In this document: in pieces, positions 39,150-58,506 of the stretch
How positions within the stretch are numbered: the first letter of the stretch is position 1
How the letters are laid out: every line of letters starts with the position of its first letter
Assembly: GCF_014646875.1 (NCBI RefSeq)
Contig: NZ_BMOC01000003.1
Span: 124,001-188,000 of the forward strand
Direction: 5' to 3'
Source of the DNA: Halobellus salinus
Lineage (GTDB): Archaea > Halobacteriota > Halobacteria > Halobacteriales > Haloferacaceae
Length of the DNA stretch: 64,000 nt
The notes under the pieces: generated by a model
Database searches by the model: none
What the model was told of the DNA's origin: nothing
Seen by the model: only the letters and a program-made list of their open reading frames with translations
Position numbers and translations under genes: made by a program

Positions 39150-42059
39150 CTATATCGGGAGGGCAAGGCAAATATTCTCGACTTCTGGCGCCAGCGAAAT
39201 CACCTGCGCTTTCCGCTGTAGTTCATCTTGACGTTTCTCGATCCGCTCCTCCAACTTCGACAGCCGATCGCGCTGCTTCCGGATCGCGATATCCATATTC
39301 GAGCCCGCTTCGGCTTTCCGCTCGTAGTCTGCGATGAACGACTCGATCCGCTCCCGTTCGGCTTCCGCGTATGCCTCAAGATCATCAAGCTCTTGCTGCG
39401 TTTCCTCTCTACGGCGCTCTTGGAGTTTGTCGCGTCGTGATTCGACACGTTGACTCACGTATCGGTCGGCAGACGAGCGCATCTCGCTCTGGTGGTCAAG
39501 GAGCGAGCGTACACGGTCCTCATTCGGAGAGCCCTTGATCGTGTCTCCCTCGATGATTCGTTGGCCAAGGCGCTGCTGGGGATCACGATGCGCCGCATCG
39601 ACGAAAACAGGCATTATTTCCTCACGAATCACCTCACTCGCCCCATCCTCGAATCTGATGCGGTAGTTGTAGGTGATGCCCGGCTCATCCACAAATGGGA
39701 GCAACTTGAGCCCGACGGTACCTTGCTCACTGCCGAGCACTTGCTGCATCAGTTCCTGGACGAGTTCTGCGTCCGGAGAGATGTACTCGATTCCGTCGTG
39801 GTTCATCGCGAACTCACGATTGAACGTGAATGGTCCGTATGGCTCACCATCACGCGAGCGTTGAAGGGAATCGGGGAGTTCTGCACGGAAGAGGTTGTTT
39901 CCAGCCGTTTCGACGTTTCCTCCGAGTGCGGAGATCCCTAGCTCGAAGAACTGTCGAATGTCGGCTTCACTTCCATAGACATCCTCTGACTGGTCCATCA
40001 CCTCCTGGATCTTTCGACGGCTTTCCTCGTCGAACGTGCTCGTGTCGACGAGGCTTCGTTCGTACCACTCCTGAAGCGTGCGCTGGCGCTCGTCGATGAG
40101 CTCTTCGAGCTCCTCCTTGGTCGCACTCGCTGGCTCGTCGTTCCGGATGGACTCCATAATGAGCGAGTCGACGTTGATGTCGTCAAGCATCCCCAGCACG
40201 TCGGCAGTGCTACCCAGTTGGCCGCGGATGCTCTCAACCTTCTCTTGGAGCATCTCGAACACCTCGCTCTCGCGAGTGTCCTCGAACGAGAAGTTCCAGA
40301 CTTTGACCTCCTTGTCCTGCCCGTATCGGTGGAGACGACCGATGCGCTGTTCGAGGCGGTTTGGGTTCCACGGCAGTTCGTAATTGACCATAATATGGCA
40401 GCTATGCTGGAGGTCGATCCCTTCGCTAGCTGCGTCAGTCGCGAAGAGCAGGCGGGACTGGCCGTGGTTGAACTCATCTTCGATGCGAGCACGGTCTTCC
40501 TTGTCGACGCCCCCGTGGATGACGAGGATTTCGTCAGCCCACGGCTCGTCTTTCACGAGTTCGAGGATGTAATCGAGCGTATCGCGGTACTCCGTGAACA
40601 GCAACACCTTCTCGTTAGGCTGTTCCTCGAGCAGTTGCTGGATATACCGTCGGACTTTCTGGGCCTTCGAGTCGACAGGGATACCCTCTGCGAGCGAGAC
40701 GAGGTCTCGGAGCGTCTCTATCTCTTCTTCGAGTTGTGCGTCGCTCTCGGTGATGGTCAGCCCTGCGAGTTCTTCCTCGGCCTTCTGCTGGTCCTGCTCG
40801 TCGAGGTCCTCCCCCTCAAGATATGCTGCGGCCTCCTCGGAGAGGGATGTCGACGACGACTGTTGATCCACGAGATTCCCGAGGCGACGGCTGAGCGTCG
40901 CCTTTATCGCTCCGATGCTGCTGACGAGGCGTTTCTGCATTAGCGCCATCGCAAATCCCACAGCAGGCTCGTTGAGCTGCTCAGAGCGGTTGTAGACGTG
41001 CTTGACGTAGTCCGTGACCGCACGATAGAATTGACGCTCCTCGTGGGTCATCTCGACCGGGATCGTCCCGACATCTCGGTTCGGGAAGATGCGCTCGCCG
41101 TCATCGTCATAGATGGTTTGCTTCCCACGGCGCATCATCACGCGATCGACCGCCTCTTTGGAGAGGTCTTGGTCCTCAGCGACGAGGAACGGATCGATGT
41201 ACTCAATCAGCGAGCGGAACGCCTCGCCCTTGCCGTCGTGCGGCGTCGCACTCAAAAGAAGTAGGGAGTCGGAGTTGTCGGCGACGCGCTCGACCATCTT
41301 CGACGTCTTGCTCGGAGACTCGCCTCGCTTGGCTGCCTTGTGTGCCTCGTCGACGACCGCGACGTCCCAGAAGGCGTCGTCGAGTTCCCCGCGGAATTCT
41401 TCCTGACGGAGGAACGCCATACTCGTGACCAGCCGTTGGTGATCCTGGTTCCAGATATTCGCCTCCTCGCCGAGACGGCGGCGTTCGCCTTCGACCCACT
41501 GTCGATCCGCTGGTGTGAGGCCGATGTCGAAGAAGCGGTCCATATCGCGAATCCACTTCTTTTGGAGGTGTGCGGGGACGACAAACAGGACGCGGTCAGC
41601 GCGGTTGCGTGCTGTGAGTTCCTTGAGGATGAGCCCCGCCTCGATGGTTTTCCCGAGCCCGACGTCGTCGGCGATGAGTGCTCGCTGTCGAAGCTTCTGC
41701 ATCACCCAGTTGACGCAGGCGAGTTGGTACGGTTCGAGGCGGACCAGCGAGTTCGAGATGGAGAGGAGTTGCCCCTGCTCGTGGGCAATCTGGAGCTGGA
41801 GCGCCTGCGAACGGAGGTCGAACCACTCTGCAGAGACGGATTCGTGGTCAGGATGGAGTTGGGTCGCTGTCGCGGGGTCAAGCGCACCGAATTGATCCTG
41901 CTCCCGCTCGATCTCTACGTCGTCGATACAGACGGTCTTGACGCCGACGTCCTCAACGTAGGCCCGCAGATATTCGAGGTCGCCGACGGAGTACGTCTTG
42001 ATGACCTCAGCAGGGTTGCCGTTGAGCAGAATCGTGTCTCCGGGTGCGAGGTCGTTCAT
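39150..42059 (-). CDS. brxHII: BREX SNF2/DEAH-type helicase (BrxHII)
   Basis: 969 residues, a superfamily 2 DNA translocase of the SNF2/RapA kind. Walker A is IADDVGLGKTIEAGLIL, Walker B/DEAH is VVDEAHKAAKR, motif III is LLLSATPHDGKG, and the C-terminal lobe has LLFATDAASEGIDLQ and RLEQRIGRLHRYGQ. A charged coiled coil (residues about 880-960) ends the protein. It is the last gene of the BREX operon, 6 bp after pglZ. In BREX subtypes 5/6 such COG0553-type helicases are named BrxHII; DISARM DrmD is a related alternative, but the neighbours are BREX genes. Confidence 0.85.
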   Translation of the reverse strand: MNDLAPGDTILLNGNPAEVIKTYSVGDLEYLRAYVEDVGVKTVCIDDVEIEREQDQFGALDPATATQLHPDHESVSAEWFDLRSQALQLQIAHEQGQLLSISNSLVRLEPYQLACVNWVMQKLRQRALIADDVGLGKTIEAGLILKELTARNRADRVLFVVPAHLQKKWIRDMDRFFDIGLTPADRQWVEGERRRLGEEANIWNQDHQRLVTSMAFLRQEEFRGELDDAFWDVAVVDEAHKAAKRGESPSKTSKMVERVADNSDSLLLLSATPHDGKGEAFRSLIEYIDPFLVAEDQDLSKEAVDRVMMRRGKQTIYDDDGERIFPNRDVGTIPVEMTHEERQFYRAVTDYVKHVYNRSEQLNEPAVGFAMALMQKRLVSSIGAIKATLSRRLGNLVDQQSSSTSLSEEAAAYLEGEDLDEQDQQKAEEELAGLTITESDAQLEEEIETLRDLVSLAEGIPVDSKAQKVRRYIQQLLEEQPNEKVLLFTEYRDTLDYILELVKDEPWADEILVIHGGVDKEDRARIEDEFNHGQSRLLFATDAASEGIDLQHSCHIMVNYELPWNPNRLEQRIGRLHRYGQDKEVKVWNFSFEDTRESEVFEMLQEKVESIRGQLGSTADVLGMLDDINVDSLIMESIRNDEPASATKEELEELIDERQRTLQEWYERSLVDTSTFDEESRRKIQEVMDQSEDVYGSEADIRQFFELGISALGGNVETAGNNLFRAELPDSLQRSRDGEPYGPFTFNREFAMNHDGIEYISPDAELVQELMQQVLGSEQGTVGLKLLPFVDEPGITYNYRIRFEDGASEVIREEIMPVFVDAAHRDPQQRLGQRIIEGDTIKGSPNEDRVRSLLDHQSEMRSSADRYVSQRVESRRDKLQERRREETQQELDDLEAYAEAERERIESFIADYERKAEAGSNMDIAIRKQRDRLSKLEERIEKRQDELQRKAQVISLAPEVENICLALPI

Positions 42060-42065
42060 AGGTGG

Positions 42066-44216
42066 TTATTCCTGCGTGATAGTGACGAAGTTCAGGACGA
42101 ACTCTTGGGGAAGAACGCCGCCGTGGTAGAACCGCGCGTCAGGGAGACCCTGGTTTCGGAACCGCTGGATCGGATCCGCAAGGACACGAACCCTGGCGTG
42201 GTCGTCGAGATAGCCCAGGTGGGTATCCTCGTCAAGTATGACGCCCGGTCCGTCGTCATCGAGATCTGCGCCGGCAACCCAGCGTCGGGTCACCTGTTCG
42301 GCGTTGTCCGGCGGGTAGAGGTCGTCGATGTCGACGTGTGTCGGCAGTGAGACGAAGCCGTGGTCCGAGAGGATGTATGCCCGATCCCACTCACCTTTGT
42401 CCAGCTTTTCGCAGATGATGCGCGAAATCGACTCGATTCGGTCGCTGAACACCTCCTCGAAGTTCGTCAACTCCTTCTCGCCGGTCTCATCGATGTCATT
42501 CCAGTAGTAGGCGACGCGGGTGTTACTCCAGCCCACCTCGTCTCCAGCGTCCTGCATAATGTAGCTCCAGCCGTCGTTCTCGAGGAGTGTCTGGCGGCGG
42601 TGGGTCGTGATCTTTCGGTCGTTGCGCTCGGGGACCAGTTCCCCGTCCTGGAGTTCGATGTTGAAACTGAACTTGCTGCCGGGCGTGAGCGCGGCCTTCC
42701 CGAACTCGGTGTCGGAGGGCAGCGTGCCGACCCACGTGCTCTCATCGACTTCGAGTCGGGGAAGCTCGCGACGAATCGAGTCGGCGAGTTCGTGGGCGAG
42801 GTCGAAGCGTAACGCGTCGATGATGAACAGGGCAACGCTCTGCCCACTCTGAAGGTGCTCCTGCTCCTCGGCGAAGAACTGGTGGGCGTGGTTCTCGCCG
42901 ACGAAGGGTGAGCCTGCGTCGATCTGGTCGACGACGAGATCGCCGAGATCAGTGAGATATTCGAGGTACCGCGATTCAGTCAGCGAGGACCGAAGATCAT
43001 CGAGCGTCGCCGTCGCCGGGTGCTCCTCGGGGAGTCCGGTCTCCGGTTCGCCGGAGACGATGAGGTTGAAAACGGCGTTGTCGATCTGCCAGGTTCCCCC
43101 GTCGATGTCGCCGTAGAGGTCGACGACGTCACTGGTGTCGCCGCGTTCGTCCCAGGTCGCGAGTTCGTCCGCGAGCGTGGCCACATCGATGGCCTGTTCC
43201 CAGACATTCGTCCACGGAACAGTGCCGTAGGTCGATTCCAGCCGATCGTGACGCTGTCTCGCGTTGGTGACACACTCCTCGTACTCGCCGCTGTTGAACG
43301 ACTGGGTCCACTCGTCCCAGAGCCGGTGTTCGAGTGCGGCATCAACTGGACAGTCGACGAGCTTCCACGGCTCGTCGTAGGTCCGAAGGACGTCGTGCCA
43401 GAACCGCCGGTTCGGATCGAGGTATACGTCCGCCAGTTCGCGCTTCTGTGCGGTCTTGCTCAGCACCGAGCGAAGCTCGGGTCTGGAGATTCCGAATCCT
43501 GTATTGGGTTCGGGCTGGTACTCGTTCGGGAGACGCGACTTGTCCAGTCCTTCGTCGACGAGCCACTCGGCAACCGCCCAGCGGCGCGTTCGGTCGACGA
43601 TGGTGCGGGCGTCGGACTGGCCTTCGGCGGCCGTGACACCGTTGTCGACCAGTAAGTCGCGGATCTTCAGCAGCTCGTCGCCGTCCGGGAGGTTCCGCGT
43701 GCCGTGCTCAAGAACGAACTGCACGGGGTCGTCCTGGCCGTCGAGTACGATCTTCGTCTGGAGGCCCTGGAGCGACGGCAGGCCTCCCTCGCCGTTGAGT
43801 TCCTCGTAGAGCGTCTGGGCGACTTTCTCACGATTCTCGGCATCCTCGTAGGCGGTGCGGATCGTCGCTGCCTGGAGACGGTCGTTCTCGAAGCAGCGCG
43901 CCGCGAGCTTGCCGATGTGTTGTTCGACGACTTCGCCAGTGTGTTCGACGTCTTTGAACCAGTCCACGTCGTCGCTGCTGGACTGGGGAACGTACCAGAC
44001 GGTCCGGTCGCGTGGGGCGTCGGCACGGAGTTCCAGCGGCGTCTGCTCGGCGGCACGGAATTCGCAACGGAGTTTGGTGCTCGCGTGCTTGACGATGTCC
44101 CGGAGGTAGCCGCCGTCATCCCACCAGAGGATGACTGGATCCTCGTCGGCAGCGTCATCGATGGCAGTCTGGATGGCGTCTTCAGCGCACTGTGGGAGGG
44201 TTTTCGTCGCGGGCAT
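42066..44216 (-). CDS. pglZ: BREX protein PglZ (alkaline-phosphatase superfamily)
   Basis: 716 residues from ATG 44214-44216, 2 bp after the stop of pglX. The PglZ domain is in the second half: SVALFIIDALRFDLAHELAD has the metal-binding Asp residues, YILSDHGFVSLPTHVDIDDL and RFYHGGVLPQEFVLNF complete the alkaline-phosphatase-like site. The N-terminal half (VILWWDDGGYLRDIV...) is typical of PglZ in BREX loci. PglZ is a core, required BREX protein of still unclear activity. The frame is open further upstream within pglX but that extension is basic and non-coding-like. Confidence 0.9.
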   Translation of the reverse strand: MPATKTLPQCAEDAIQTAIDDAADEDPVILWWDDGGYLRDIVKHASTKLRCEFRAAEQTPLELRADAPRDRTVWYVPQSSSDDVDWFKDVEHTGEVVEQHIGKLAARCFENDRLQAATIRTAYEDAENREKVAQTLYEELNGEGGLPSLQGLQTKIVLDGQDDPVQFVLEHGTRNLPDGDELLKIRDLLVDNGVTAAEGQSDARTIVDRTRRWAVAEWLVDEGLDKSRLPNEYQPEPNTGFGISRPELRSVLSKTAQKRELADVYLDPNRRFWHDVLRTYDEPWKLVDCPVDAALEHRLWDEWTQSFNSGEYEECVTNARQRHDRLESTYGTVPWTNVWEQAIDVATLADELATWDERGDTSDVVDLYGDIDGGTWQIDNAVFNLIVSGEPETGLPEEHPATATLDDLRSSLTESRYLEYLTDLGDLVVDQIDAGSPFVGENHAHQFFAEEQEHLQSGQSVALFIIDALRFDLAHELADSIRRELPRLEVDESTWVGTLPSDTEFGKAALTPGSKFSFNIELQDGELVPERNDRKITTHRRQTLLENDGWSYIMQDAGDEVGWSNTRVAYYWNDIDETGEKELTNFEEVFSDRIESISRIICEKLDKGEWDRAYILSDHGFVSLPTHVDIDDLYPPDNAEQVTRRWVAGADLDDDGPGVILDEDTHLGYLDDHARVRVLADPIQRFRNQGLPDARFYHGGVLPQEFVLNFVTITQE

Positions 44217-44218
44217 CG

Positions 44219-47200
44219 TTACAGGACGTCGTCGTCGACGGTCTTCGGGACGATCTCGGCGTCGGCGAGCGGTGTGATGTTGATCTCGACGCCGTGTTTG
44301 TGGTTCGGGTGGTAGCCGGCGGTTGTAATTTCTGAAAGTGCTCGTTCTTCCCACTCGGACGGAATCCTGCTCGCGAGGTCGTCACACTTAGATTCAATCT
44401 CGTCTGCTAGCGTTTCGTACTGTTCAAACTCAGATGCAATCTGGGCCAAGAGCTTCGCTTCTTCGTCGATTAGTGACTCTTTCGGCTGTCCGTTCTCGTT
44501 TAGGAGGTCGTCCGCCTGTTTTTTTGGATAGTAGCCGATGGATAATATTCCGGTACTGGTCGGCCATACAGACCCCTTCAGCTCATCACCGAAGTAGGTG
44601 AGTAAATCGTACAGGTGTGCCTCAACGGGTTCATTCGCGCTCGTGGCGTGGCTTTCTGCAGCATATTCAAGATCCTCTATAGCACTAATCCACTCCTCTT
44701 TGTTCTCTCGAAGGGTTTCTACAAAGGAGGCGCTGAAGGTATCTTCCAACTCACTCTCATCCTTTATTTCCATCAACCGTTCGTAACACCGGATCTTTTC
44801 TTCAGTGATCTCACGAAATTGCTCAACACTGTCTTCGAGAGCTTTCGCGGTCTCGCGGTCTTCTTCACCCCAATCTCGCGGGCTCTCTTTAATCAGGTTT
44901 TGAATTGCGTCTTGGAACTGCTCAATTTGTTGCAGTCCGCTCTTACATTGCTCGAATCTTTCCGTTGCTTTTGCCCGTTCACTAGCAGATAGAGAGTCAT
45001 CTGAACGCCTTCTCTCCGCAGCATTCCGACGTTCTCGGAGCTCGGCTTTACGCGGTTCGAGATACTGACTTTCTAGTCGATCAAATGTACCTGTGTCGAA
45101 TTGATGATAATTGAGAAGACAGGAGAAACCCTCTCCCTCCGGATCAGGAACGAGGTTCTTCGTGGTCAGCTTCCATAGTACCGGTCTGTTCTCAAACTGT
45201 TGGGTGAGGTATTCGAAGAGACCCTGCTGAAGCCAATCCCGGAGATTGGGGTACGCCTCTTCAGCACGTTCTTTATTCCCCAATAGACTGTCTATTTCTG
45301 CGAGACGACTCTCGTACTCCTCCGCAAATATCGACTCAAACTTTGATACGATGTCCTCCTGTAGGGTTTCTCGCGACGACTGAACTTCGGTTGGGACTTC
45401 AACAATCCCATCTGGGTCTTCCTGAATAATTCGGTGAGTGAGATGTACGAGCAAATCCTTCACATACTTGACTGTATTTTCCCTCGTTTCGGTGACTGAT
45501 TCAGGATCGTATTCTTCCGTCTGTCGTGGGTCCTCGTTAGTACGAAGTGCTATTTCGCGGTAGACCTCTTCTCGTCCTTCCTCATCCACTTCAAAGAGGT
45601 CAAAGACGTATTCGTCAATATAATCTGCTTTTTCTTGTAGCCGCCCCTGGAGCTTCTCCTTTCGTTTATCTGTGGCGGTGGAGAGTTCACTGATACTGGC
45701 AGTTGGGCTCAGCTTCTGGTCGTTCTTGGGTATTGGAAGCTCGTCAAGTACCGTTCTATGAGGATGGTCAAAGAGAGCATCAGGTTCACCGTCCTCAACT
45801 TGCTTCAGGAGGGCTGGTCCAGTATAATGGGGGGATGTAATATCATCGCTTCTAAGAGCAAGCAGGATTCCTGCAATCTCTTTAGCTTGAACATCTAGAT
45901 CACTCTGGTTGATAATGTCCTCACGCCACGGAAGTCTAGAGACGTACCCGACCTCCCATTGACGGTCCGGAGTCTGACAAATCATTAGATATGTCGTCAG
46001 ACTACTATTAGCGTACGATAGTATATCCCACACGTCACGGTCTGGGACAAAAACGCACCCTGCGCGGCCAAATACAGAATCTGGGTGGAGATAGCCGAAA
46101 CGACGCCCGCCGGCTTTCATATACGTCCAAGTCAGAGCTTCTTTGAAATACGCGTCTTCGTTCCTTATGTAAGATCCTTCGAACCGCTTCAATTCCTCCC
46201 CATTCTTCCCCCAACCGAGAACAAGATTAAGATTGGGTAGGATCCAAGCGTCCTTCCCCCCCTTCGCGAATGGGGTCCAATAATCACTAGTTCCTTCCCA
46301 GAATTTCCGAACGAATCTTGCGTTGTCTGCGGTGCTAAGGCCTTGCTTTGCAGAGCCTAGCCCTTTGCGCTTCTCTAGGCTTCCATTCTCGTCATCAAAT
46401 ACTGTCTCTGAGTCGTATAGTGCCCTGAGATCATTTGAAGTCCAGTAGGAAAGAGGTGACCCCGGTATCAGGTCAAATTCGGAAATGGGCCGGACGTATT
46501 TTCGAGGAATATCTCCTGACTGCTCACCGAAGGCAGCTTCAACAAAAGTTTCTTGCTTATCATAGGTATCCACATCATGGAGGCGGAAGAATGTGCCTGA
46601 TGACTCTTTGTTCGTCTGTGTGTCAACCCTGACGACAGTGCCCGCAGTTCGAACTGTCGCATTATCCAGAACATCGTTTCCGTACTCTGCCAAGAAGTCA
46701 AATGAGCCTTCAGAGCCGATGAAATCTTCACGGAAATCTTGGAAGCTACTTTTGAACATAAACGTCCGTGGGACGATCATACCAATTCGACCGCCTTTCT
46801 TCAACACGGATTCACAAACTTCGAAGAAGTTTATATAGTATTCTGGCCCGTATTCGTAGTGCTCTTCGACGTAATCAGAGACTTCCTCAGGCATACGCTT
46901 TTTTGCGCCATAGGGCGGGTTCATAAGAGCCACATCGTAGTCCTGTGAAAGCACTTGAAGCAGCCTGAGGAAACTCTTCAGGTCTTGTGCCAAGAAGGAC
47001 TCATTGTCCCGTTGCTCTGAGATAGCGTCGTGTAGTTCATCAAGAAATGCACTTAAACTCCGCGCGCTACCCCAAGATTCCGTAAGTTTCGCCTGGCGAT
47101 CTAGGAATTCTTCTGAGATGGAGTCCCGGATCTTAAGAAGGCTTCCGAGCCCCTGAATATCTTCAAACTGAGTAAGGAGGTCCTCAAGTGAGTCTTGGAG

Positions 47201-48454
47201 TTCTTGATTTTCTCCTGCAACTTGGCTGAAAATATCTACCGCGTTTTCGGAATCTGCCACACGTGCATCGGCACACACGATGCCGACTTCTGGAAGTTCA
47301 AAACCGTGTTCCCCCTCTTGTTCAGAACGTTCCCTGGCTTTGAGATACAGACTGAGTGCCGCGATCTGGCACGCTCTGAGGTCGATATCCACTCCATAGA
47401 TATTATTCTGAAGAATTTTCTTGGGAACCTCTTCACGAGGTATTTCCGAACATTCGTTCCACCAAATACGTTCTAAAACATCAAATGCATAAAGAAGGAA
47501 ATGCCCACTACCACAGGCTGGATCGATGACCCGTATTTCAGAGGGGTGAGTGAAATCAGTACTCGACATATGGTCTCCTTCCTCAACTAGATAAGTACAG
47601 AGGTCTGCGATGTCTGTCGCGTTTTCAGATGAAACGTCCCGATTAATCCGCTCTGAAGGTGTTAATGAGGACTGCTCCTCAATCGTACTGTCAAGTTGAT
47701 TCGTAGATTCAAGATACAGTTTCCCGAGGCTGTTATCTGTGAGGCTTCGAACTACCCAATGCGGGGTGTAAAACTGATTAGCAGCCGGAACATCCTCAAT
47801 GTCTAACCGTCCTTCTCGTGCCTTCCGTTGCACCTCCTCTAAGCGCGGTGTGTTATAGTATTCGTAGACCCACCCAAGAACGTCGTCAGCCCGCCATACG
47901 CTGTCAGGGACCTCAGCGAGTTTTCTGCAAAGCTCTTCGTAGGTATCATTGTCCGGGTCAATCAGACTGTACGCCGAGGAACGATCGAACAGTATCTCGA
48001 TTTCCTCAGCGAGATCGTCACAGGCGCTGTGATACGCCTCCAGAATCGCTTCGTCTTCCAGGAGGAACTCCTCGTGGACCAAGGTCTCGGCGGCTGGCGT
48101 TAGGCCGTTCTGCTTGAATACGGTAACCTCCTCGTCTATGAACTCCCGGATTTCCATACACCGCAGCGCTGCAAGACGGTTGACGATGGTGTACCCAACA
48201 CCCGTGACGTACTGCTCGAACGCCTCGTCCCAGGTGGTTCCGTCGACGGCTTCGAGTTCGATCGCGTCGACGAGCTCCGTATCCTCGTCCAGCGATTCGG
48301 ACTCCTCCGGCTCGTCATCGAGACCCTTTTGTGTCAGTTGGAACCGGACGTTGTCCTCGACACGCTCGCGGAGGTCTTCGACGACGTCTTCGAGATGTTC
48401 GCGTTCGGCCTTGTCCAGTTGCGCCTTTCGGTGAGAGGGTGAATCGGCATTCAT
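44219..48454 (-). CDS. pglX: BREX adenine-specific DNA methyltransferase PglX
   Basis: 1411 residues. PglX marks host DNA by N6-adenine methylation and provides BREX specificity. The SAM-binding motif I is IDPACGSGHFLLYAFDVL (near 310) and the catalytic motif IV is VALMNPPYGAKKR (near 511), so this is an N6-adenine (gamma-type order) enzyme. After the methyltransferase core comes a target-recognition region (about 590-800) and a long charged helical C-terminus. The start at 48452-48454 is MNADSPSHRKAQLDKAEREH; TATA-like sequences lie in 48465-48505. Codons for roughly 47.96-44.35 kb are clearly more AT-rich than both ends of the gene and the neighbours. Confidence 0.92.
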   Translation of the reverse strand: MNADSPSHRKAQLDKAEREHLEDVVEDLRERVEDNVRFQLTQKGLDDEPEESESLDEDTELVDAIELEAVDGTTWDEAFEQYVTGVGYTIVNRLAALRCMEIREFIDEEVTVFKQNGLTPAAETLVHEEFLLEDEAILEAYHSACDDLAEEIEILFDRSSAYSLIDPDNDTYEELCRKLAEVPDSVWRADDVLGWVYEYYNTPRLEEVQRKAREGRLDIEDVPAANQFYTPHWVVRSLTDNSLGKLYLESTNQLDSTIEEQSSLTPSERINRDVSSENATDIADLCTYLVEEGDHMSSTDFTHPSEIRVIDPACGSGHFLLYAFDVLERIWWNECSEIPREEVPKKILQNNIYGVDIDLRACQIAALSLYLKARERSEQEGEHGFELPEVGIVCADARVADSENAVDIFSQVAGENQELQDSLEDLLTQFEDIQGLGSLLKIRDSISEEFLDRQAKLTESWGSARSLSAFLDELHDAISEQRDNESFLAQDLKSFLRLLQVLSQDYDVALMNPPYGAKKRMPEEVSDYVEEHYEYGPEYYINFFEVCESVLKKGGRIGMIVPRTFMFKSSFQDFREDFIGSEGSFDFLAEYGNDVLDNATVRTAGTVVRVDTQTNKESSGTFFRLHDVDTYDKQETFVEAAFGEQSGDIPRKYVRPISEFDLIPGSPLSYWTSNDLRALYDSETVFDDENGSLEKRKGLGSAKQGLSTADNARFVRKFWEGTSDYWTPFAKGGKDAWILPNLNLVLGWGKNGEELKRFEGSYIRNEDAYFKEALTWTYMKAGGRRFGYLHPDSVFGRAGCVFVPDRDVWDILSYANSSLTTYLMICQTPDRQWEVGYVSRLPWREDIINQSDLDVQAKEIAGILLALRSDDITSPHYTGPALLKQVEDGEPDALFDHPHRTVLDELPIPKNDQKLSPTASISELSTATDKRKEKLQGRLQEKADYIDEYVFDLFEVDEEGREEVYREIALRTNEDPRQTEEYDPESVTETRENTVKYVKDLLVHLTHRIIQEDPDGIVEVPTEVQSSRETLQEDIVSKFESIFAEEYESRLAEIDSLLGNKERAEEAYPNLRDWLQQGLFEYLTQQFENRPVLWKLTTKNLVPDPEGEGFSCLLNYHQFDTGTFDRLESQYLEPRKAELRERRNAAERRRSDDSLSASERAKATERFEQCKSGLQQIEQFQDAIQNLIKESPRDWGEEDRETAKALEDSVEQFREITEEKIRCYERLMEIKDESELEDTFSASFVETLRENKEEWISAIEDLEYAAESHATSANEPVEAHLYDLLTYFGDELKGSVWPTSTGILSIGYYPKKQADDLLNENGQPKESLIDEEAKLLAQIASEFEQYETLADEIESKCDDLASRIPSEWEERALSEITTAGYHPNHKHGVEINITPLADAEIVPKTVDDDVL

Positions 48455-48535
48455 TAAAACATAACCCAGTATACTACCACCGACTGACACGAGCGTCTTT
48501 AATGTTGCCGACGAGCCAGTCGCCCTCCGCGACGG

Positions 48536-49042
48536 TCACCAGGTGAGCGAGAGCCCCTCGATCGTAATGTTCGGCAAGCCGACCGCTGGGGGCGACAAGT
48601 CGCTGAATCCGCCGTCGTCGGTTAGGATGAGTGGGTGCTCGGTCCGATGCTCGTACGCGAGTGATAGAATCGGGACGTCCTTCGCCTGGATGTCCAGTAG
48701 CTGTGCAAGAAGCCTGTTGTTCGTTCGGCCACGGACCTCCGCGAGATCCACGTCTCGGAGCTGCGCTTGATCGAACGGGACGAGAACGTCTTCACACGAG
48801 TATAGCAACGTGAACAGTTTCGTCAGGATATCCTCTATTTCGGCTTCAGAGACTCGTTTGGACCGAAATAGCCCCTGCTGTATCTCCTCCAGCATATACG
48901 CCGAGAGGACCGTCTGGTGGCGGCCCTCGTACAACTCCTCAAAGAAGTACAGCCGCTCGCGAAGTTCGTTGGAATAGATCTCAACTGGAAATTCCTCGGC
49001 TGTTGCTACGTATATCCAGACGTTACTATCCAGGATCAGCAT
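48536..49042 (-). CDS. PIN-domain protein inside the BREX operon (toxin-like)
   Basis: 168 residues. The N-terminal LILDSNVWIYVATAE carries the first PIN aspartate, LSAYMLEEIQQGLF the conserved glutamate region, and ILSLAYEHRTEHPLILTDDG the C-terminal acidic pair. PIN domains are Mg-dependent RNases, usually VapC toxins. A 55-residue gene ends 5 bp upstream, as an antitoxin would. It lies between a protein remnant and pglX, 81 bp from pglX. It may be a nested toxin-antitoxin pair or a BREX-associated nuclease (inference). Confidence 0.75.
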   Translation of the reverse strand: MLILDSNVWIYVATAEEFPVEIYSNELRERLYFFEELYEGRHQTVLSAYMLEEIQQGLFRSKRVSEAEIEDILTKLFTLLYSCEDVLVPFDQAQLRDVDLAEVRGRTNNRLLAQLLDIQAKDVPILSLAYEHRTEHPLILTDDGGFSDLSPPAVGLPNITIEGLSLTW

Positions 49043-49566: not shown

Positions 49567-52500
49567 CTACTCTTCGATCAGCACGATATCCCCATCGTCG
49601 ACGTCGTCCAAAGCATCCCTGACTGCGCGGATCCGAGCAAGCAATTTCTCGGCTTCGTCGAGGAGCTCCGTCGCCCGTTCGTCAGTCGGTCTGTCGTTCG
49701 CATCGACTAACCCCGTCACCTCATCAGTGACGTCAGCGTTCGGAAGCTCTTGCCGGAGCTCTTCGGCGACGCGCTGGAGCTCCGCCCAGATGTCGTCCCC
49801 ACCAATAACTGGCATAGTGAGGAGTCGCTGAACCTCCTCGAGTGACGGTGGACGCGAGGCATCCAGTGCATCCCCGATTGACTCCGTAGTGGGCGACTGT
49901 GGGTGCTCGGCACGGAGTGTCCTGTACCTGTCTTTTAGTTGTGACCACGGGCTCGGATCCCCCTGTAGGATCTCTCGAGCCCTTTGATACGCCTTGATCT
50001 GCTGATCGAACGCAGCATCGACGATCTGGGCCTCTTCGATCTGACCATCATTCGACGCGGCTTCGAGCACCGACTCAATATCGCCAAACGACACACCGTC
50101 GAACGTTGCTGTGGCATCGTCAAGCAGCGTGTTGACCGTCGACTCGTTCTTGCGAAGCCATTCGGTCAGCTCCACGCAAATTTCGTCGGGGTCTGACGAG
50201 TCGGCGGGCTCACCCGTCACCCGACGGTACTGTGCCGAGAGTTCGTCGACACGGTGGCCCGTCGCATCCGCAAGGCGCGACGTTACGGTCGTCTTCGTCT
50301 GAACAGACCCGCTCTCCGCGGTCGTCTGCATCCGCGAGGTGATCGTCGCACCGGGGTAGAGGTCCTCCATCAGTTCGAGCGTACTGGTGAACTGACCCCA
50401 GAGCGTTTCTCTGCCGTCTACTACAGCGAAGAGTTCACGGCCATCCGCGAACGTCTCCGCCTCCGATTGAATACCGTCCTCGACCAGTTCTGACGTGGTG
50501 ATATCGTTACCACTGTACGCGGGCGACAGCACACGCTCCAGGGAATCCAGAGACACGTCGAACTCGGGTGAAACACTCTTGAACGTCCGCTTGACGAGCA
50601 CGCTGTTATCAGCAACCCACGAGGCGAGTTCTGCTACCCACTCGTCTGGATCGCTGCCTCCGGGGTCGTGCCCGATGACCGTCGATACGACCTTCCGAAT
50701 CTCCTTGGGATTGACCGTGTCGACGCCGAAGCGCACCTGTAACGACGTGAGACCGCCTTTCGTCCGGACCTGCCGCCCGATCGCCGCTGGATCGGTCACG
50801 TAGTCTGTGTCCTGCTTCAGTGCGACCCTCTCGTTCGATGTCGCGAGCGTGACGAGCAGCGCTGCAATCGACTCTTGTGGCGTCCCGCGGTAGTCCCCGT
50901 TCGCTGTACGCGTTTGCTGGAGCAGCGTTTCGACGTCCACTGCAGTCTGTGATTCGTACTCGTCGATGAACTCCCGGCACCAGCCGGTATCCGCGATCTC
51001 CGTGCTCGACGTATCGACGCCGAGCATCACAGCGTCACCATCGCCGAGTGGCCAGCTCCCACTTCCACGGAAGAATTTCGCCAGCTCCTTTGCGTCGTCC
51101 ACCTCGACGAGCGGCCGCGAGAGGACCCTCCGAGTCGAGCCAAAGACCGCCTGCACCTGGTCTTCGACGACCTCGTCCAGAACGCTTGGTCGCTCACCTC
51201 GGTAATCGTGGACTGTGTGGACGGACGCGTTTTCGAGGAGTTCGCTCACGGACGACTCCAGCCGCCGTTTATCAGTCCGGTGTTCCCGTTCGAGCTCCTC
51301 GTGGCTCTCGGTCTCCTCGTCCAGCACCTGCCCCATCCCGATAACGTTGCGAATCCTGTCGAGTGTCGTCTCGGGAACGTCGATCGCGATGAGGACGTGT
51401 TCGCCACCATCGCGTCCGTCGTTCACATCCTGCCACGTCTCCACCTGATCAGAGACCGTATCGGGGTCGTCGGCGAGGACGCGAATTCGGACGGCATCGT
51501 ACTCCGGGCTCGGTGCTCTGTCCACTGGGTCGAGGATGGAATACTCGTAGCGGAGTGGAACGAGTCGCTCGTCACCGACATCGGCCTCGTGCCGGCTGTT
51601 GTCGCTCCTGAAGAAGTCGTCGTTCTCCCGGAGTCGCGTCTCCAGCCAGGCGGAGAGTTGGTGTGGCGAGATCTGCTCTGCTTTCGTCTGTGCCCGACTC
51701 AGGATACTCTCCTGTTCCTCCGAGACCAGCGTGTACACCTCGTCGTCTTGATCGTTCGTCTCGGTGAGCACTTTCCGCTTATCGACGAGCGTGTTGAGTG
51801 CCGATCGAGTCTCCTCGACGCGTTCGTCAACCGATGCATTCACGTTGTCAAGCATCAACCGCCCGAGATTCTCCGGCGTCGCAGGGACAGCCGGTATCTG
51901 GTTCAGTAGATACAGCGCCTTCGAGACGCGGACTTCCCACGCCTCGGTGTTCCCATCGAAGGTCGGGATCAACGTGTTTTCGAGCATCTCCTGCACCCAC
52001 AGCGGCACGTATGTCGTCTCCTCAACGAGCAGATTGAACAGTTCGTCCCACGTAACGAGGGCACCCTCCTCCGCATCGGCCCAGCCGAACTTCGTGAACA
52101 GCGACCGCACCAGAACGAGCAACGCACGGCCCTGGATGTAGTCACGGTCGGTGGCTCGGCCTTGCGTGATCAGCTCCTGCATCACCGTCCGCAACAGGGT
52201 CAGGTCGTACTCGCGGAACGGATACGATTCGACGGGGTCAGGATCTGCACTCCCGACTGGTGAATACGCCTCCAGCGAGAGGTCCGGCGTCGATGAGATG
52301 AGCGAGGAGACTCGGGACCTGCCTGTACCGTCCTTCTTGAGCCAGCGTTTCCGGACGATGATTTCCGTGTCCGCCCCTTCGAGTGGCACCTGCTGATGCG
52401 TCCAGTGGTCCTCGGAGGGGTTTCCGATGAGGCTTTCCCGTGTCGCAGGAAGCGAGTACTGGCCGGTGGTCACGACGACCGGATTCGGCCCGTATTGGAG

Positions 52501-53364
52501 CGCTTCCATCGTCTCCTCGAACTCGCGATAGCGATGCCGGCTATCGCCGACAAACAGCGCGACCTCGTCGAGGCCAAGGAGGAGCTCGGTATGCGGGCCT
52601 TCTCCGTTTAGTGCTGCAGTCACGGTCTCGACGCGTTCGACCAACTCACCGGGATCGAACGACTCGGGGTCGACCTCCGCTTCGGCCCGCTCGATGGACG
52701 CTTTCACGCCGTCCCGGCTGTCGAGCTCGGTCCCTGTCGTCTCCGACAGTGCTGGGAGTGCCTCGTAGAGCCACCGCCGCAGCGAAGCACGCTCTTCGAG
52801 CACGTCTTCGAACGTCTGCCCATCGCATTCGGTGGTTTGGAGCGCGCCCCAGACGCCGTCGTACTCCATATCGACGGTCCAGGCCCACTCGAGCAGCCAG
52901 TTGGGGTCGGTCGGATAACCGAGTTCGCGTCCGATCGCCTCGAAGATGAGGAACGGGAGTGGCGGTTCCTTCGAGGCATCCCGGTCGAGGAGGTTCAGGA
53001 ACACCGGTTTCAAACGCTCCACGTGTGAGTCGTCGATCGACTTAGCGAGGTTATCGAACCCAGGCCACTGCTTGGCGAGTTTGGTACCCAGATGTGCAAA
53101 CTCGGACTCGGTATCGGCGACGAGACCGATGAGCTTCAGCAGGTGTGTCTTTCCCGATCCGAACGTCGCGTGGAGATAGAGGAAGCGAGCGGCCTCTCCT
53201 GGATGTGTCTCGATGATGCTACCGAGTTCAGTAAGGACACGCTTTGCACTCTCCGTCTCGTGGAACTCGACGACATCGGTCTCAGCCCGTTCCCGAGCGT
53301 TGACTTTCTGGACTTCTTCGAGCTGTCGGGTTGGGTCGCTGCGGAATAGATTGCTGATACTCAT
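49567..53364 (-). CDS. brxC: BREX P-loop ATPase BrxC/PglY, first copy
   Basis: 1265 residues. The N-terminal ATPase has Walker A in FLYLHATFGSGKTHLLKLIG (about residues 60-80) and a likely Walker B in LLLGLDEVALFVGDSRHRYR. The long remainder is helical, with insertions and an acidic C-terminus. BrxC/PglY is a large AAA-type ATPase needed for BREX. It overlaps brxB by one base (TAATG stop-start), so translation is coupled. It differs strongly from the other BrxC-type protein in this locus. The C-terminal end runs to DDGDIVLIEE. Confidence 0.87.
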   Translation of the reverse strand: MSISNLFRSDPTRQLEEVQKVNARERAETDVVEFHETESAKRVLTELGSIIETHPGEAARFLYLHATFGSGKTHLLKLIGLVADTESEFAHLGTKLAKQWPGFDNLAKSIDDSHVERLKPVFLNLLDRDASKEPPLPFLIFEAIGRELGYPTDPNWLLEWAWTVDMEYDGVWGALQTTECDGQTFEDVLEERASLRRWLYEALPALSETTGTELDSRDGVKASIERAEAEVDPESFDPGELVERVETVTAALNGEGPHTELLLGLDEVALFVGDSRHRYREFEETMEALQYGPNPVVVTTGQYSLPATRESLIGNPSEDHWTHQQVPLEGADTEIIVRKRWLKKDGTGRSRVSSLISSTPDLSLEAYSPVGSADPDPVESYPFREYDLTLLRTVMQELITQGRATDRDYIQGRALLVLVRSLFTKFGWADAEEGALVTWDELFNLLVEETTYVPLWVQEMLENTLIPTFDGNTEAWEVRVSKALYLLNQIPAVPATPENLGRLMLDNVNASVDERVEETRSALNTLVDKRKVLTETNDQDDEVYTLVSEEQESILSRAQTKAEQISPHQLSAWLETRLRENDDFFRSDNSRHEADVGDERLVPLRYEYSILDPVDRAPSPEYDAVRIRVLADDPDTVSDQVETWQDVNDGRDGGEHVLIAIDVPETTLDRIRNVIGMGQVLDEETESHEELEREHRTDKRRLESSVSELLENASVHTVHDYRGERPSVLDEVVEDQVQAVFGSTRRVLSRPLVEVDDAKELAKFFRGSGSWPLGDGDAVMLGVDTSSTEIADTGWCREFIDEYESQTAVDVETLLQQTRTANGDYRGTPQESIAALLVTLATSNERVALKQDTDYVTDPAAIGRQVRTKGGLTSLQVRFGVDTVNPKEIRKVVSTVIGHDPGGSDPDEWVAELASWVADNSVLVKRTFKSVSPEFDVSLDSLERVLSPAYSGNDITTSELVEDGIQSEAETFADGRELFAVVDGRETLWGQFTSTLELMEDLYPGATITSRMQTTAESGSVQTKTTVTSRLADATGHRVDELSAQYRRVTGEPADSSDPDEICVELTEWLRKNESTVNTLLDDATATFDGVSFGDIESVLEAASNDGQIEEAQIVDAAFDQQIKAYQRAREILQGDPSPWSQLKDRYRTLRAEHPQSPTTESIGDALDASRPPSLEEVQRLLTMPVIGGDDIWAELQRVAEELRQELPNADVTDEVTGLVDANDRPTDERATELLDEAEKLLARIRAVRDALDDVDDGDIVLIEE

Positions 53365-53951
53365 TATTGGAGATGCACCTCCCGGATTTGGCCGTCGATC
53401 TGGTGCGCCGGGTAGTAGTGCCGCGAATCGCCGCCGAAGAAGCTCAACTTCCCACCAACGACATCACCTGGGAAGGGAATCCCGATCGTCGATCGGACGT
53501 TTCGACGGTCGAGTTCGTCAAGGAGTTCCGAGGCGCGCGTGAACGGATAGAGGCTGCCGAGGTTGAGTAACAGGACGATGTGGCTCTGGGTTTCGAGTTT
53601 GTCATCGTCGATTTCGTTCGAGATCATCTCTTGGACCAGTTCGTCGGCAAGCCGGTCCTGCATCGTCCCTTCGATACGTTCTGAGGTTGTTTCCCCACCG
53701 AGCACCACCGAGAGATTGTATACTTTCGTCTTGGGGAGGAGTTCGTCAAGCCAGATCGGCTGCACGGTGACTCCATCGTCGGGTGAGGGTGCTTCGTTAG
53801 CTCCATTTGCCCACGCACTCAGCCGTTCTGCAGTGCGGTGTTCGATCGCTGGGTCGATAGCAGCGATGACGAATGGATTCCGGATACCGGCCTGACCGTC
53901 GGCGAACGTGCAGAGCTTCTTTTTAAACCCACGATACGGTGACTCGGTCAT
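53364..53951 (-). CDS. brxB: BREX protein BrxB (DUF1788)
   Basis: 195 residues. The DUF1788 pattern is visible: RNPFVIAAIDPAIEHRTAER at the start, HIVLLLNLGSLYPFTRASEL in the middle, and the family-typical end IGIPFPGDVVGGKLSFFGGD, then YYPAHQIDG. BrxB is a small conserved BREX protein of unknown mechanism, thought to act with BrxC and PglZ. Its start overlaps the stop of the second brxC by 4 bp (ATGA). Confidence 0.88.
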   Translation of the reverse strand: MTESPYRGFKKKLCTFADGQAGIRNPFVIAAIDPAIEHRTAERLSAWANGANEAPSPDDGVTVQPIWLDELLPKTKVYNLSVVLGGETTSERIEGTMQDRLADELVQEMISNEIDDDKLETQSHIVLLLNLGSLYPFTRASELLDELDRRNVRSTIGIPFPGDVVGGKLSFFGGDSRHYYPAHQIDGQIREVHLQ

Positions 53952-56900
53952 CGGATGACCACCCCCGAGTCCGTCGTGTCGATATATAGTTCTCGACTCT
54001 CGACGAGACGTTCGAGATGCCGGTCGATGCTCTCGCGGTCGTCCGGAAGCATACCGATCTGATCGACGTCATCGGGCGTCCGGTTGCCAACGATTGCAGT
54101 GAGTCGCGTGAGCCTGGATGACAACTCATCCATATCGCAATCAGTCGCTGTGGATAGTGGATCTGTATCAGAGATATCAGCAGCAGCCGAGACCAGTGTG
54201 TCCTCATCGTCTGAAGCGAGCGACGCGACAACTTGGTCGATCGTCTCGTACCAGCGCTGCATCTCTCGTAGCGGCTTGATATACTCACGTTCCATCGTAG
54301 GCTGTACACCTGCTGGAAGCTCTGTAGCTGGGATGACCCACGGATTGCTATCGATGCCCTCAACGAGGTCAGTGAGCCCTTGCTGGTCGCTGTAGGTGTT
54401 CCAAGAGCGCTGGAATTCGTTATCTAGCCCGGTTGTTGTCTCTGCGACGAGAGTCTTCCATCCGCCTGTCGTCCACCAGTTTCCACCGAAGTTTTCGAGC
54501 GCATCGCGCTGTCTAATGACTGCGGATAATGCTTCGTCGTCGACCCACTCGAACCGGTCGTCGCCCACCGTGAGTTGCGCGTCGAACCGGTAGAGTGACC
54601 CGAGCCGACGGGTCCAGACGTCTTTCACTTCATCGAACCACTTCTGTGCGTCGTTCGTCTGTTCGATTGCGTCTCCGAGTCCGTCTCCTTGCGATTTCAC
54701 GACGGACAACCGATCAGTAGTGGCGGTGATACGATCTGCCAGCTCCTCGATGAGCGCTTTGAGGAGCCCAGCGACAGCGTCAGAGTGGATATCGGTATCG
54801 ACGACCAGTTGGACATCCTCCTGAAGTCCAATGAGTGACGACCGTAACTGCTGGTTCGCTTCCTGTAGGTTGATGAGTCCGTCTGCGACCGTTTCTGTCG
54901 TTTTCTTGAAACCACCCTCTTCGAGGAGCTTCCCAATCGGCTCCCGCGGGAGTAGCTTCAGCCTCGTCGTCGAGAGCTGCTCTCGATCGAGTACAACCGA
55001 GTTTTCCAGCGTATTCCCGTCTTCGTCAACGGGAACCAATCGGCCCTCCCGACAGAACCCCCAAATGATCGCACAGAGCGCTGGACGAGCGTCGTCGTAG
55101 AACGGCTTCTCCGAGGTAATGCCATCGAGAACAGTATTCATATTGAGGCCGCCGTCGCGGTCTCTCAACTGTCGCCCCGTGAGAGCCATCACGTTACGCT
55201 GAATTGATTTCTTCCCCTGGCTTGCAGACGAATCAGACGATGGCACCTGAATCGTGTGCGCCCACGCAGGAAGTGGATCTCCTGTCGAGAGCTCCGCCAA
55301 TTCCTGCAGTCGATTGTCGGTCACCTGCAGCATCATCGGGTGGAAGTCATCGGGATATCCGACATCAACGGCAGTCTGAACGGCCGCGGAGATACCAGTA
55401 AGATCCGTTCGGTCTTTCACCGTATACGAACCGCTCTGCATCGCACTAACGAGTTTACTCCGAACAGCACTAGCACGCTGCTCAAGATCTCGTTCAACAG
55501 CTCTCGGTGCTTTTTGTGTCGAAATCGCGTCACGGAGTGCCCACCATTCGACGAGATGGTTTCGAAGATCCTCAAGACCATCCGTGTCTATCGTCCAGTA
55601 GAGAGTTTCCTCATCACTGTTATCGGCGGTGTAATCTGGGCGAATACCCTGTACTTCGATAGGGATATCAAGTCCCCCATCAGCGTCGACAGTAGTCTCG
55701 AAGTCGGTTCCATCGAGACGGAATTCATACGATACGGGATATTCATCGCCAGACTCTCCGTACGGAACCGATTCTGGCAGTGAGAGGTCTTGTATGATCC
55801 GATGCCAGAGATGCTCGTCCAGCGTTTGCAGTACAGCGTCCCAGTCGGGGTCGTCTTCGTTTGCCTCCGTATCTTCGTAGATAATCCGCTCTACCTGGGT
55901 CGCAAAGCGGTACCGAGCCCCCGTTTCATCCCCTGTCGGCCGGATGAACTTCTGGAGGCGTCCAAGTGACTCCTCGACTCGGTTCTGGGTACTGATCCAG
56001 GACTGACCGTTGAGATCCGACATCACGGAAACCGCGATGTTCCCCTCGTTGAGTGGGGCGATATCGTGGATGTGTTGGAGTAGGAGAACGGCTTTCGCGA
56101 CATCGAGATCGAATTCCTCCAAGTCCCCATCACGCACCTCGTCTTCGATCCCTCGACTCGCGTCAGAGCCTTCGATGACGCGCATATCCTGTTCGAGTAT
56201 CTCTCTGATCTCCGGCTTCACCAACTCGTAGAAATCCACGAGTGTGATAACACGGTCATCCTCACCCTCATCAACCCACTCCTGTAGGAGGTTGTGCATA
56301 AGCGCGAGAATGGCTCGTGCCGTGCCCGAGAAGATGGACTTCGCCGGGTCACTTGCCTCCTGGCGGAGGTTGAATAGGATCTCGAGGAACAAGGGGGCGT
56401 GGTACGGGAGAAACGGATAGAACTCGACGAGTTCCTCGTCGTCGATGCTGTCGAGTGGCGGTTTCGTATTCTGCTTGACTTCGTTGTAGACCAATGATTC
56501 GGTCGGCTTCACCGACGCTTCGTCGAGCACCTCTCGAACTGCCGTCTCCCCAACATCGGACTTCTCGAAGAGACGGCGCTTTGCGATATCGCCGACGTGC
56601 TTACTGGGGAGCTGATACCGGTGCGGGAATCGATCTTTGACGATACTGAAATCCGCACCGTGTGCAGCGAACTTTGGCTGGACGTCCTCGATCTTCGCTT
56701 GCGCGGTCGCGACCAACTGGATGTCGCCATCGCCGATGTCGTCGACGTTCTCGGCAAGTGTCTGAAGTTCGGTCAGTCGCCCGAAATCGGTCCCGATAAA
56801 GAGGCTCACCTCATCGAGGAGCAACACGAGCTTCACTGGTTTCCCTAGCTCTGCCTCCCGCTCGGTCCGTAGCTCTTCCAGCCTGCTCACGACCTCCTCT

Positions 56901-57667
56901 GGGTCGATGTCAGACGGTTGCAGGTCTGTATATCCGTCACGTGTCTCGTTGACCGCCTCGAAGAGCTTGGGAAGCACGACGTCTGCCAGTACACCATAGC
57001 TCTGCACATCCTTCCAGAGGCCGTCAGATTGCCAGTTGTAATCGTTATTCGCGGTTGTCACATCCGCAAGCACGGCTTCCGCACGAGCCTGCCGATTGGG
57101 CCACGCATCCGTCGTTCGGAACCATTTCTCGAAGTATGCAACATCGAGTTGCGAGGACAGTCCTTCCGAGATACCATCATCAACGCCGGTTAGATCCCCA
57201 TCTTTGTGGGCGTGTCTGAGAGCAATTTCGCTGAAGCTCCGTTGCTTTTGACCCTGGTACTTCAGGAGATTGACTGAGATCGGGATAACGTAGTACTCCT
57301 CGTGAACCGCTTGCCAACGATCGCTTAGTTTCTCGAACTCCTCGTCACCGGAGGCCTGAACGAGATCTGACCAAATCGCATCCTGTTGTCCGTCGAGCCA
57401 GTCGGTGTCCAGCAGTCCATCGAGGACGGTCAGCAGGTGGCTCTTCCCACTTCCGTAGTAGCCGTAGAGCCAGTAGTTCGATCCCGTCCGCATATCGTCT
57501 GCCTGGCCGAGCGTTCGGTCGACGAAGTCCCCAATAAACCGGCGGGAGTCAGCAGTCATATGATACGACCGGATGGCTCGTTGACGGTGGTCTTGCTCGT
57601 CCCGATCAATACGGACCGACTCCTCGAAATCATCCGGGAGGTCGTCGAACCAGTTCCCGTCGACCAT
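53948..57667 (-). CDS. brxC2: BREX P-loop ATPase BrxC/PglY, second copy
   Basis: 1239 residues. Walker A is YGYYGSGKSHLLTVLDGLLD near residues 68-75 and Walker B is LVLLLDEVSLFIGTDFGRL. It also has the N-terminal SYHMTADSRRFIGDFVDRT element. Length and layout match BrxC/PglY, yet the sequence is only distantly similar to the other copy, so the two probably arose by ancient duplication and may form a hetero-complex (inference). Two brxC/pglY genes are a recognised mark of the Halobacteria-associated type 5 BREX. Its start overlaps brxA's stop by one base. Confidence 0.87.
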   Translation of the reverse strand: MVDGNWFDDLPDDFEESVRIDRDEQDHRQRAIRSYHMTADSRRFIGDFVDRTLGQADDMRTGSNYWLYGYYGSGKSHLLTVLDGLLDTDWLDGQQDAIWSDLVQASGDEEFEKLSDRWQAVHEEYYVIPISVNLLKYQGQKQRSFSEIALRHAHKDGDLTGVDDGISEGLSSQLDVAYFEKWFRTTDAWPNRQARAEAVLADVTTANNDYNWQSDGLWKDVQSYGVLADVVLPKLFEAVNETRDGYTDLQPSDIDPEEVVSRLEELRTEREAELGKPVKLVLLLDEVSLFIGTDFGRLTELQTLAENVDDIGDGDIQLVATAQAKIEDVQPKFAAHGADFSIVKDRFPHRYQLPSKHVGDIAKRRLFEKSDVGETAVREVLDEASVKPTESLVYNEVKQNTKPPLDSIDDEELVEFYPFLPYHAPLFLEILFNLRQEASDPAKSIFSGTARAILALMHNLLQEWVDEGEDDRVITLVDFYELVKPEIREILEQDMRVIEGSDASRGIEDEVRDGDLEEFDLDVAKAVLLLQHIHDIAPLNEGNIAVSVMSDLNGQSWISTQNRVEESLGRLQKFIRPTGDETGARYRFATQVERIIYEDTEANEDDPDWDAVLQTLDEHLWHRIIQDLSLPESVPYGESGDEYPVSYEFRLDGTDFETTVDADGGLDIPIEVQGIRPDYTADNSDEETLYWTIDTDGLEDLRNHLVEWWALRDAISTQKAPRAVERDLEQRASAVRSKLVSAMQSGSYTVKDRTDLTGISAAVQTAVDVGYPDDFHPMMLQVTDNRLQELAELSTGDPLPAWAHTIQVPSSDSSASQGKKSIQRNVMALTGRQLRDRDGGLNMNTVLDGITSEKPFYDDARPALCAIIWGFCREGRLVPVDEDGNTLENSVVLDREQLSTTRLKLLPREPIGKLLEEGGFKKTTETVADGLINLQEANQQLRSSLIGLQEDVQLVVDTDIHSDAVAGLLKALIEELADRITATTDRLSVVKSQGDGLGDAIEQTNDAQKWFDEVKDVWTRRLGSLYRFDAQLTVGDDRFEWVDDEALSAVIRQRDALENFGGNWWTTGGWKTLVAETTTGLDNEFQRSWNTYSDQQGLTDLVEGIDSNPWVIPATELPAGVQPTMEREYIKPLREMQRWYETIDQVVASLASDDEDTLVSAAADISDTDPLSTATDCDMDELSSRLTRLTAIVGNRTPDDVDQIGMLPDDRESIDRHLERLVESRELYIDTTDSGVVIR

Positions 57668-58506
57668 TAGCTGTCACCTCCGTCGTGTGGCCACGAATAC
57701 GGTCCATCACTGGGACGTACGTCGAGATCACCGTGCAGCTCGATGTACTCCCACGCGCCGGTGCTCACAACTCGGTCGAAGAGCTCTTCCCAACGGTTCT
57801 CAGGCTGGAAGAGATAGAGTAACCCTCGCGGCGCAGTGAGCCACTCATCGTCATCGCTCTCGTACGAATAGTCCATCGCGACAAGTAGCGGGATGTCGCC
57901 TATCGACGGAGATGCACCAGCGACCGATTGCTGTCCGTCGAGTACACCGATTTCACGCAGTACCGAGCGAAAGCCTTCGCACCACCGCCTGGTCGTTGAC
58001 TCGGCGTAGTCGAAGGAGGTTCCGTCAGAGTACTCCAGCCGAGTGAGGATATCGACAAGCGTTTCATTCGAGAAATTAAGCGAATCCGGTCTGTCTTTCA
58101 TAAAACGTGAGACATATTCGTGGACGGCGTACCGAACGAGCGAATCATCCGAAACAAGGTAGAGATAGAGAATCTGCGCTTTGTCGCGAGTCGTGTGACA
58201 GTCGTCGAATATCGCTGGTAGAACGCTCGGATTCGGGAGCGCCCTGGGGGCGTTCTTGAACCGCGACGTCAACACGCGGTATATTTTCTGGGAGCTGCCT
58301 CGTGTGCTTCGGTTCGACAGTCGTTCGTCAAACCAGACCTCTTTGACTTCGTTCCAGTTGCCGTGCTCGGCGTAGAGTTGGGCGAGTTCCTCGGCTCGTT
58401 CGACAAGGAGACCACACATAGTCAGATCCATATTCACGTCTCCCGGCGGGAACTGGCGAGACAGCGATGGGACGGGAGAGCTGCCGCCGTCAGATACGAA
58501 GTTCAT
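57667..58506 (-). CDS. brxA: BREX protein BrxA (DUF1819-like)
   Basis: 279 residues. RGSSQKIYRVLTSRFKNAPR, DKAQILYLYLVSDDSLVRYA, VHEYVSRFM and STTRRWCEGFRSVLREIGVL fit the helical DUF1819/BrxA pattern, with an extra C-terminal region of about 80 residues (DIPLLVAMDYSYESDDDEWL...). BrxA is reported as a DNA-binding helical protein in other BREX types. It is the first gene of the BREX operon, with a TATA-like box 26 bp upstream of its ATG. Confidence 0.78.
   Translation of the reverse strand: MNFVSDGGSSPVPSLSRQFPPGDVNMDLTMCGLLVERAEELAQLYAEHGNWNEVKEVWFDERLSNRSTRGSSQKIYRVLTSRFKNAPRALPNPSVLPAIFDDCHTTRDKAQILYLYLVSDDSLVRYAVHEYVSRFMKDRPDSLNFSNETLVDILTRLEYSDGTSFDYAESTTRRWCEGFRSVLREIGVLDGQQSVAGASPSIGDIPLLVAMDYSYESDDDEWLTAPRGLLYLFQPENRWEELFDRVVSTGAWEYIELHGDLDVRPSDGPYSWPHDGGDS

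Follow-up and report, generated by a model that had tools for sequence, protein, structure and literature searches.

Probable replacement of the core of a BREX-5 pglX gene between resident gene ends, an apparent instance of a pattern found across haloarchaea

Why should the pglX gene of a haloarchaeal BREX operon be rich in A+T through most of its length and resemble its neighbours in composition only at its two ends? The question is raised by a stretch of 64,000 nucleotides (the window) from Halobellus salinus, which lies on one contig (G000:C3) of an assembly of 3.07 Mb in 54 contigs. An earlier note on this DNA had proposed that recombination swapped the middle of the gene and kept its ends, and we have followed the proposal through the gene, its operon and its relatives.

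The BREX-5 operon and the AT-rich block in its pglX

The window carries a complete BREX-5 operon on the minus strand, in the order brxA, brxC1, brxB, brxC2, a small gene, pglX, pglZ and brxHII, which matches the gene order of many haloarchaeal BREX-5 loci. PglX and PglZ are of the BREX-5 type by their NCBIfam models (NF033454, 2073.7 bits against a cutoff of 900, and NF033444, 1206.2 bits against a cutoff of 250), and brxA, brxB, two brxC genes and brxHII are all present in the one operon according to PADLOC and Pfam. The BREX types are reportedly those defined by Goldfarb et al. 2015. The genes are as follows.

57667..58506, minus strand: brxA (Pfam PF08849; PADLOC BrxA)
53948..57667, minus strand: brxC1 (PADLOC BrxC)
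53364..53951, minus strand: brxB (Pfam PF08747)
49567..53364, minus strand: brxC2 (PADLOC BrxC)
44219..48490, minus strand: pglX, BREX-5 adenine-specific DNA methyltransferase, frame intact (NF033454; PADLOC PglX model)
42066..44216, minus strand: pglZ, downstream of pglX (NF033444, BREX-5 PglZ)
39150..42059, minus strand: brxHII, helicase (PADLOC BrxHII, 2010 bits)

The NF033454 match spans PglX end to end, from residue 16 to residue 1423. Homology begins at codon 13, whose ATG (48454) is the probable translation start; residue and codon numbers given here count from the start of the open frame at 48490. Two relatives of BREX-5 PglX have solved structures, E. coli BrxX and Salmonella PglX (PDB 9ewz and 8c45), and BREX-5 PglX has the same domain order as BrxX, with the SAM and NPPY motifs. 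We placed the target-recognition domain by alignment to 9ewz and by the BrxX domain limits of PMC11842806, the paper that also describes a variable target-recognition region in BrxX, a feature shared by the window PglX. The most variable stretch of the protein, at about residues 630-1040, is wider than this domain. The parts of the gene, two of them judged to be resident and one to be replaced, are these.

47860..48454, minus strand: probable resident N-terminal module, residues 13-210, GC3 0.70 (no A/B class signal; identity tracks the backbone)
44351..47859, minus strand: putative replaced core, residues 211-1380, GC3 0.48 (GC3, outlier identity, AU test, class boundaries)
47498..47524, minus strand: SAM-binding motif DPACGSGHF, residues 323-331, intact
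46907..46921, minus strand: catalytic motif NPPYG, residues 524-528, intact
45917..46471, minus strand: target-recognition domain, about residues 674-858, corresponding by our reading of the alignment to residues 651-837 of E. coli BrxX
44219..44350, minus strand: probable resident C-tail, residues 1381-1423 and stop, GC3 0.74 (class signal about zero; identity to the nearest loci, L138 and L072)

Residue 211 is near the point where the NTD of E. coli BrxX gives way to the MTD: BrxX residue 210 corresponds to about residue 201 of the window protein in an alignment read by eye. This limit too is that of PMC11842806.

In 500-bp windows the GC content is 0.47-0.50 over about 44.5-48.0 kb, compared with 0.59-0.64 just downstream, in pglZ, and 0.55-0.59 just upstream. 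When third-position GC along pglX was fitted with two breakpoints, the block came out at codons 157-1389 (window 44324-48022), with a GC3 of 0.48 within it and 0.78 outside; the likelihood gain was 28.4, against a maximum of 13.7 among 100 shuffles, and the 2-lnL support limits of the breakpoints were codons 142-225 and 1387-1393. An AT-rich dip limited to the target-recognition region is ordinary among BREX-5 PglX genes and is seen in many relatives. A GC3 dip over the whole core is rare, being found in the window and a few others, and the window has the steepest end-to-core drop among 45 PglX genes. At the protein level the breakpoints fall at about residues 180-210 (47.95-47.86 kb) and about residue 1380 (44.35 kb), and the window's own upstream core breakpoint lies between about 47860 and 47950. 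The low-GC block that had been described by eye, with edges near 47.96 and 44.35 kb, is thus borne out by both the GC3 model and identity, and the step at its edges is present in the 500-bp GC profile, in the GC3 of the 45 genes and in the two-breakpoint model.

Ancestry of the pglX parts and core classes across haloarchaea

The BREX-5 loci nearest to the window, L138 and L072, served for comparison. Most of brxC2 and of brxHII is about 90% identical to them in DNA, pglZ mostly 80-93% and pglX up to residue 180 mostly 76-92%; across most of residues 211-1380 the identity is about 50-60%, with a low of 36-46% in the target-recognition region, and in the last 43 residues it stands at 77-82%. The alignment of 75 PglX proteins gives the same contrast between the parts: the ends of the window protein are ordinary (the N end has divergence rank 65 of 75, where 1 is the most divergent), and its core is among the most divergent. 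In the methyltransferase part only one protein of the set diverges more; the closest relative of the window there is 59% identical, against a median of 91% for the closest relatives of all.

Separate phylogenies conflict along the gene, as the earlier note had expected for its ends and middle. In a tree of brxC2 and pglZ the window groups with L138 and L072 (100% support). The core tree rejects that clade (AU p = 8e-6) and so does the target-recognition region, whose tree places the window with L042 instead (98%). The pglX ends, which are short and give weakly resolved trees, are compatible with the backbone clade (not rejected, p = 0.15). These results support recombination that swapped the middle of pglX and kept its ends; neither a GC profile lacking the step nor congruent phylogenies, the two findings that the earlier note had said would refute the idea, was seen.

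Is the window an isolated case? We surveyed 75 haloarchaeal BREX-5 PglX proteins, from one genome per species. The identities among their cores are bimodal and define two deep classes, A and B. With thresholds that we set after viewing the identity histogram (0.74 for the methyltransferase part), 35 cores fall into class A, 32 into class B and three into a small class, and five, including that of the window, stand alone. Unlike the cores of most BREX-5 PglX proteins, that of the window is in neither common class, and on these alignments it appears to be a further one. The signal that separates A from B is about zero up to residue 210 and again from residue 1381 onwards, and strong in between, where the strongly class-specific sites extend from residue 214 to residue 1358.

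Across the survey, identity in the N end follows that of pglZ and brxC2 closely (Spearman 0.90 and 0.92), identity in the methyltransferase part is weakly related to it (0.24 and 0.26) and identity in the target-recognition region shows no relation (0.02 and 0.03). When the closest backbone group is taken by itself, the order is the same and the correlations are weaker (N end 0.38, methyltransferase part 0.10, target-recognition region -0.04). Cores of the same class are 82-86% identical across the backbone variants 5a, 5a2 and 5b, and N-end identity is 0.80 within the window's variant and 0.68 and 0.51 between variants, regardless of core class. Judged by these 75 sequences, our survey shows a design in which ends are kept and cores are swapped to be widespread in haloarchaeal BREX-5 PglX. 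The mosaic pglX of the window would then be a single instance of a general pattern, and it is the general pattern that is the larger result. The original proposal is also refined: in BREX-5 PglX the target-recognition region often seems to have been swapped alone within a kept core, and here the whole core appears to have been exchanged.

Tandem genes show the arrangement within single loci. We compared pairs of full-length pglX genes at six loci, and at five of them one gene is of class A and the other of class B; we claim no excess of such pairs because the loci are few and three of them (L055, L057 and L058) look related. The N ends of the five A/B pairs are 83-93% identical in DNA, with exact runs of up to 228 bp, and their cores are 58-71% identical. 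Where the second pglX is placed after pglZ, its N end is like that of the pglX upstream of pglZ.

Origin of the mosaic and meaning for BREX

We consider it very probable that the window pglX was made by homologous recombination in which the resident ends were kept and the core was replaced, and that it exemplifies a design common to the family. What stayed would be the resident N-terminal module, up to about residue 180-210, and the C-tail, from about residue 1380; the core between them would have been replaced by one from an AT-richer pglX lineage that is still unsampled, for which we predict a host of about 48-50% GC. The diverged core was most likely inserted by a double crossover between the conserved gene ends (and the neighbouring pglZ or brxC2); homologous recombination is the route that we infer from the mosaic. 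In the family at large, BREX-5 PglX cores (A, B and rare others) would move between backbones through the conserved ends, with the target-recognition region moving again, separately, inside the core. The genome, class, family and plasmid searches turned up nothing more than about 54% identical over the block, and no relative of the block was found in viral contigs. The source of the core is therefore unseen.

The same final mosaic would result from events in the reverse order, a whole foreign pglX entering first and its ends being converted later to the resident type. Tandem pglX genes do have their N ends in common, and conversion may be ongoing between the window and a second BREX-5 stretch of the assembly. 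The latter lies on two contigs, C37 and C38, and comprises a partial brxC1, brxB, brxC2, a class B pglX, a gene for a 178-aa protein (ORF178) and the start of pglZ. Longer matches between it and the window are about 71-79% identical, and three tracts match exactly.

44089-44216: 128-bp tract, the first bases of pglZ, identical to C38
48067..48134, minus strand: 68-bp tract in the pglX N-terminal module, identical to the end of C37
52848-52966: 119-bp tract in brxC2, identical to C37

The tracts suggest recent exchange between the two BREX-5 loci, and strain mixing in the assembly is also possible. Two of the three sit at the end of a contig or near it, and the remaining one is close to a run of N; given these positions, gene conversion of a general kind, between two loci or between strains, or an effect of assembly may account for them. 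With those positions, and with the third tract sitting in brxC2, we do not press the tracts as crossover points. The reverse order needs two precisely placed conversion events where one double crossover would do, and we think it unlikely, while granting it a real share of the probability.

Could the core instead have evolved in place, very fast under viral pressure and drifting towards A+T, beside slowly changing ends? The core does sit on a long branch (0.76, against a median of 0.10), and long rows can be misplaced in trees. However, the core rejects the backbone clade in the AU test, the drop is sharp at both ends and coincides with the A/B class boundaries of other genomes, and speed alone would not move GC3 from 0.70-0.75 to 0.48; this explanation is very improbable. 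A programmed phase-variable switch by site-specific inversion is the least probable of all: the assembly does have a second pglX with a different core, other loci have two pglX genes and other restriction systems are known to have phase-variable specificity genes (PMC6265443), but the inverted repeats in 38.5-59.2 kb are only weak (33 nt at 73%, 27 nt at 78%), no recombinase was found among the proteins scanned at the locus and no silent core cassette lies beside pglX.

Returning to replacement between kept ends, the ends were probably retained because they fit or contact other BREX subunits, that is, they would be docking surfaces, and the swap would be expected from domain knowledge to change the DNA site that is methylated and defended. 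Physical linkage alone is an alternative that would also make the pglX ends follow the neighbouring genes; the tandem loci slightly favour function or active conversion, in that a pglX placed after pglZ has an N end resembling that of the upstream copy. The pattern of exchange bears on how the BREX complex holds PglX. It predicts docking by the first 200 or so and the last 40 or so residues, with everything between them exchangeable as a block. A four-protein Type I BREX complex of Acinetobacter has been seen by pull-down and was too unstable for structure work (PMC13326643). A defence system built in this way could change its recognition by one recombination step, without rebuilding the rest. 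We regard as somewhat doubtful the further idea that the N-terminal module and C-tail are a compatibility key to the resident BREX system and the core classes interchangeable cassettes in a haloarchaeal pool, the window holding a further class; such classes would perhaps separate two PglX specificities per cell that share one BREX machine.

The Type I BREX papers reached by our search, which took in few subscription papers, describe a variable target-recognition region and no whole-core exchange between kept ends. Domain movement and TRD exchange in restriction-modification genes (PMC3983042, PMC3077401) likewise recombine the DNA-reading part between conserved stretches. Unlike those cases, the unit in the window is the whole core of about 1170 residues, including the methyltransferase fold, and what is kept amounts to no more than about 200 residues at the N terminus and 43 at the C terminus. 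Interrupted and split pglX genes (PMC9716671) likewise mark pglX as the unstable gene of the BREX operon, and split copies occur among the loci surveyed here (L080, L081 and L158). Unlike the interruptions, the window pglX is intact and its change is a replacement.

Further observations at pglX loci

Directly upstream of brxA in the window is a gene for an Mrr-type restriction endonuclease (59284-59994, minus strand). The gap between brxC2 and pglX differs in gene content among loci. In the window it holds a 168-aa gene (48536-49042, minus strand) without a family match, which by its look may encode a PIN-type toxin, and upstream of that a short gene (about 49049-49214, minus strand); in C37 its place is taken by a 159-aa gene on the opposite strand. 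In brxC2, residues of about 900-1200 (window about 49770-50670) are only about 56-80% identical in DNA to L138 and L072, the rest being mostly near 90%, and form a second variable or exchanged segment in the operon.

ORF178 directly follows pglX in many BREX-5 loci and is absent from the window. It is found at L008 (G000:C38, 158-694), L043, L047, L056, L058, L059, L076, L078, L126 and L135, gave no match in Pfam, PADLOC or NCBIfam, is seen beside cores of several classes and may move together with pglX. At twelve loci (L046, L049, L075, L127, L128, L129, L131, L137, L141, L146, L148 and L163) a full-length BREX-5-type pglX, of class A, B or neither, has no brxC or brxB within the 20 kb fetched; these genes are possibly solitary methyltransferases or a reservoir of cores. 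BREX-5-like pglX genes also lie on contigs filed as bacterial (L106, Candidatus Nealsonbacteria; L116, Salinivenus lutea), possibly through cross-domain transfer or as misfiled archaeal contigs. Two other genes are likely mosaics: L056 (pglX at 10690) has a class A methyltransferase part and an odd C-terminal part, and in L071 (pglX at 10752) the N end is GC-rich and all that follows it is AT-rich.
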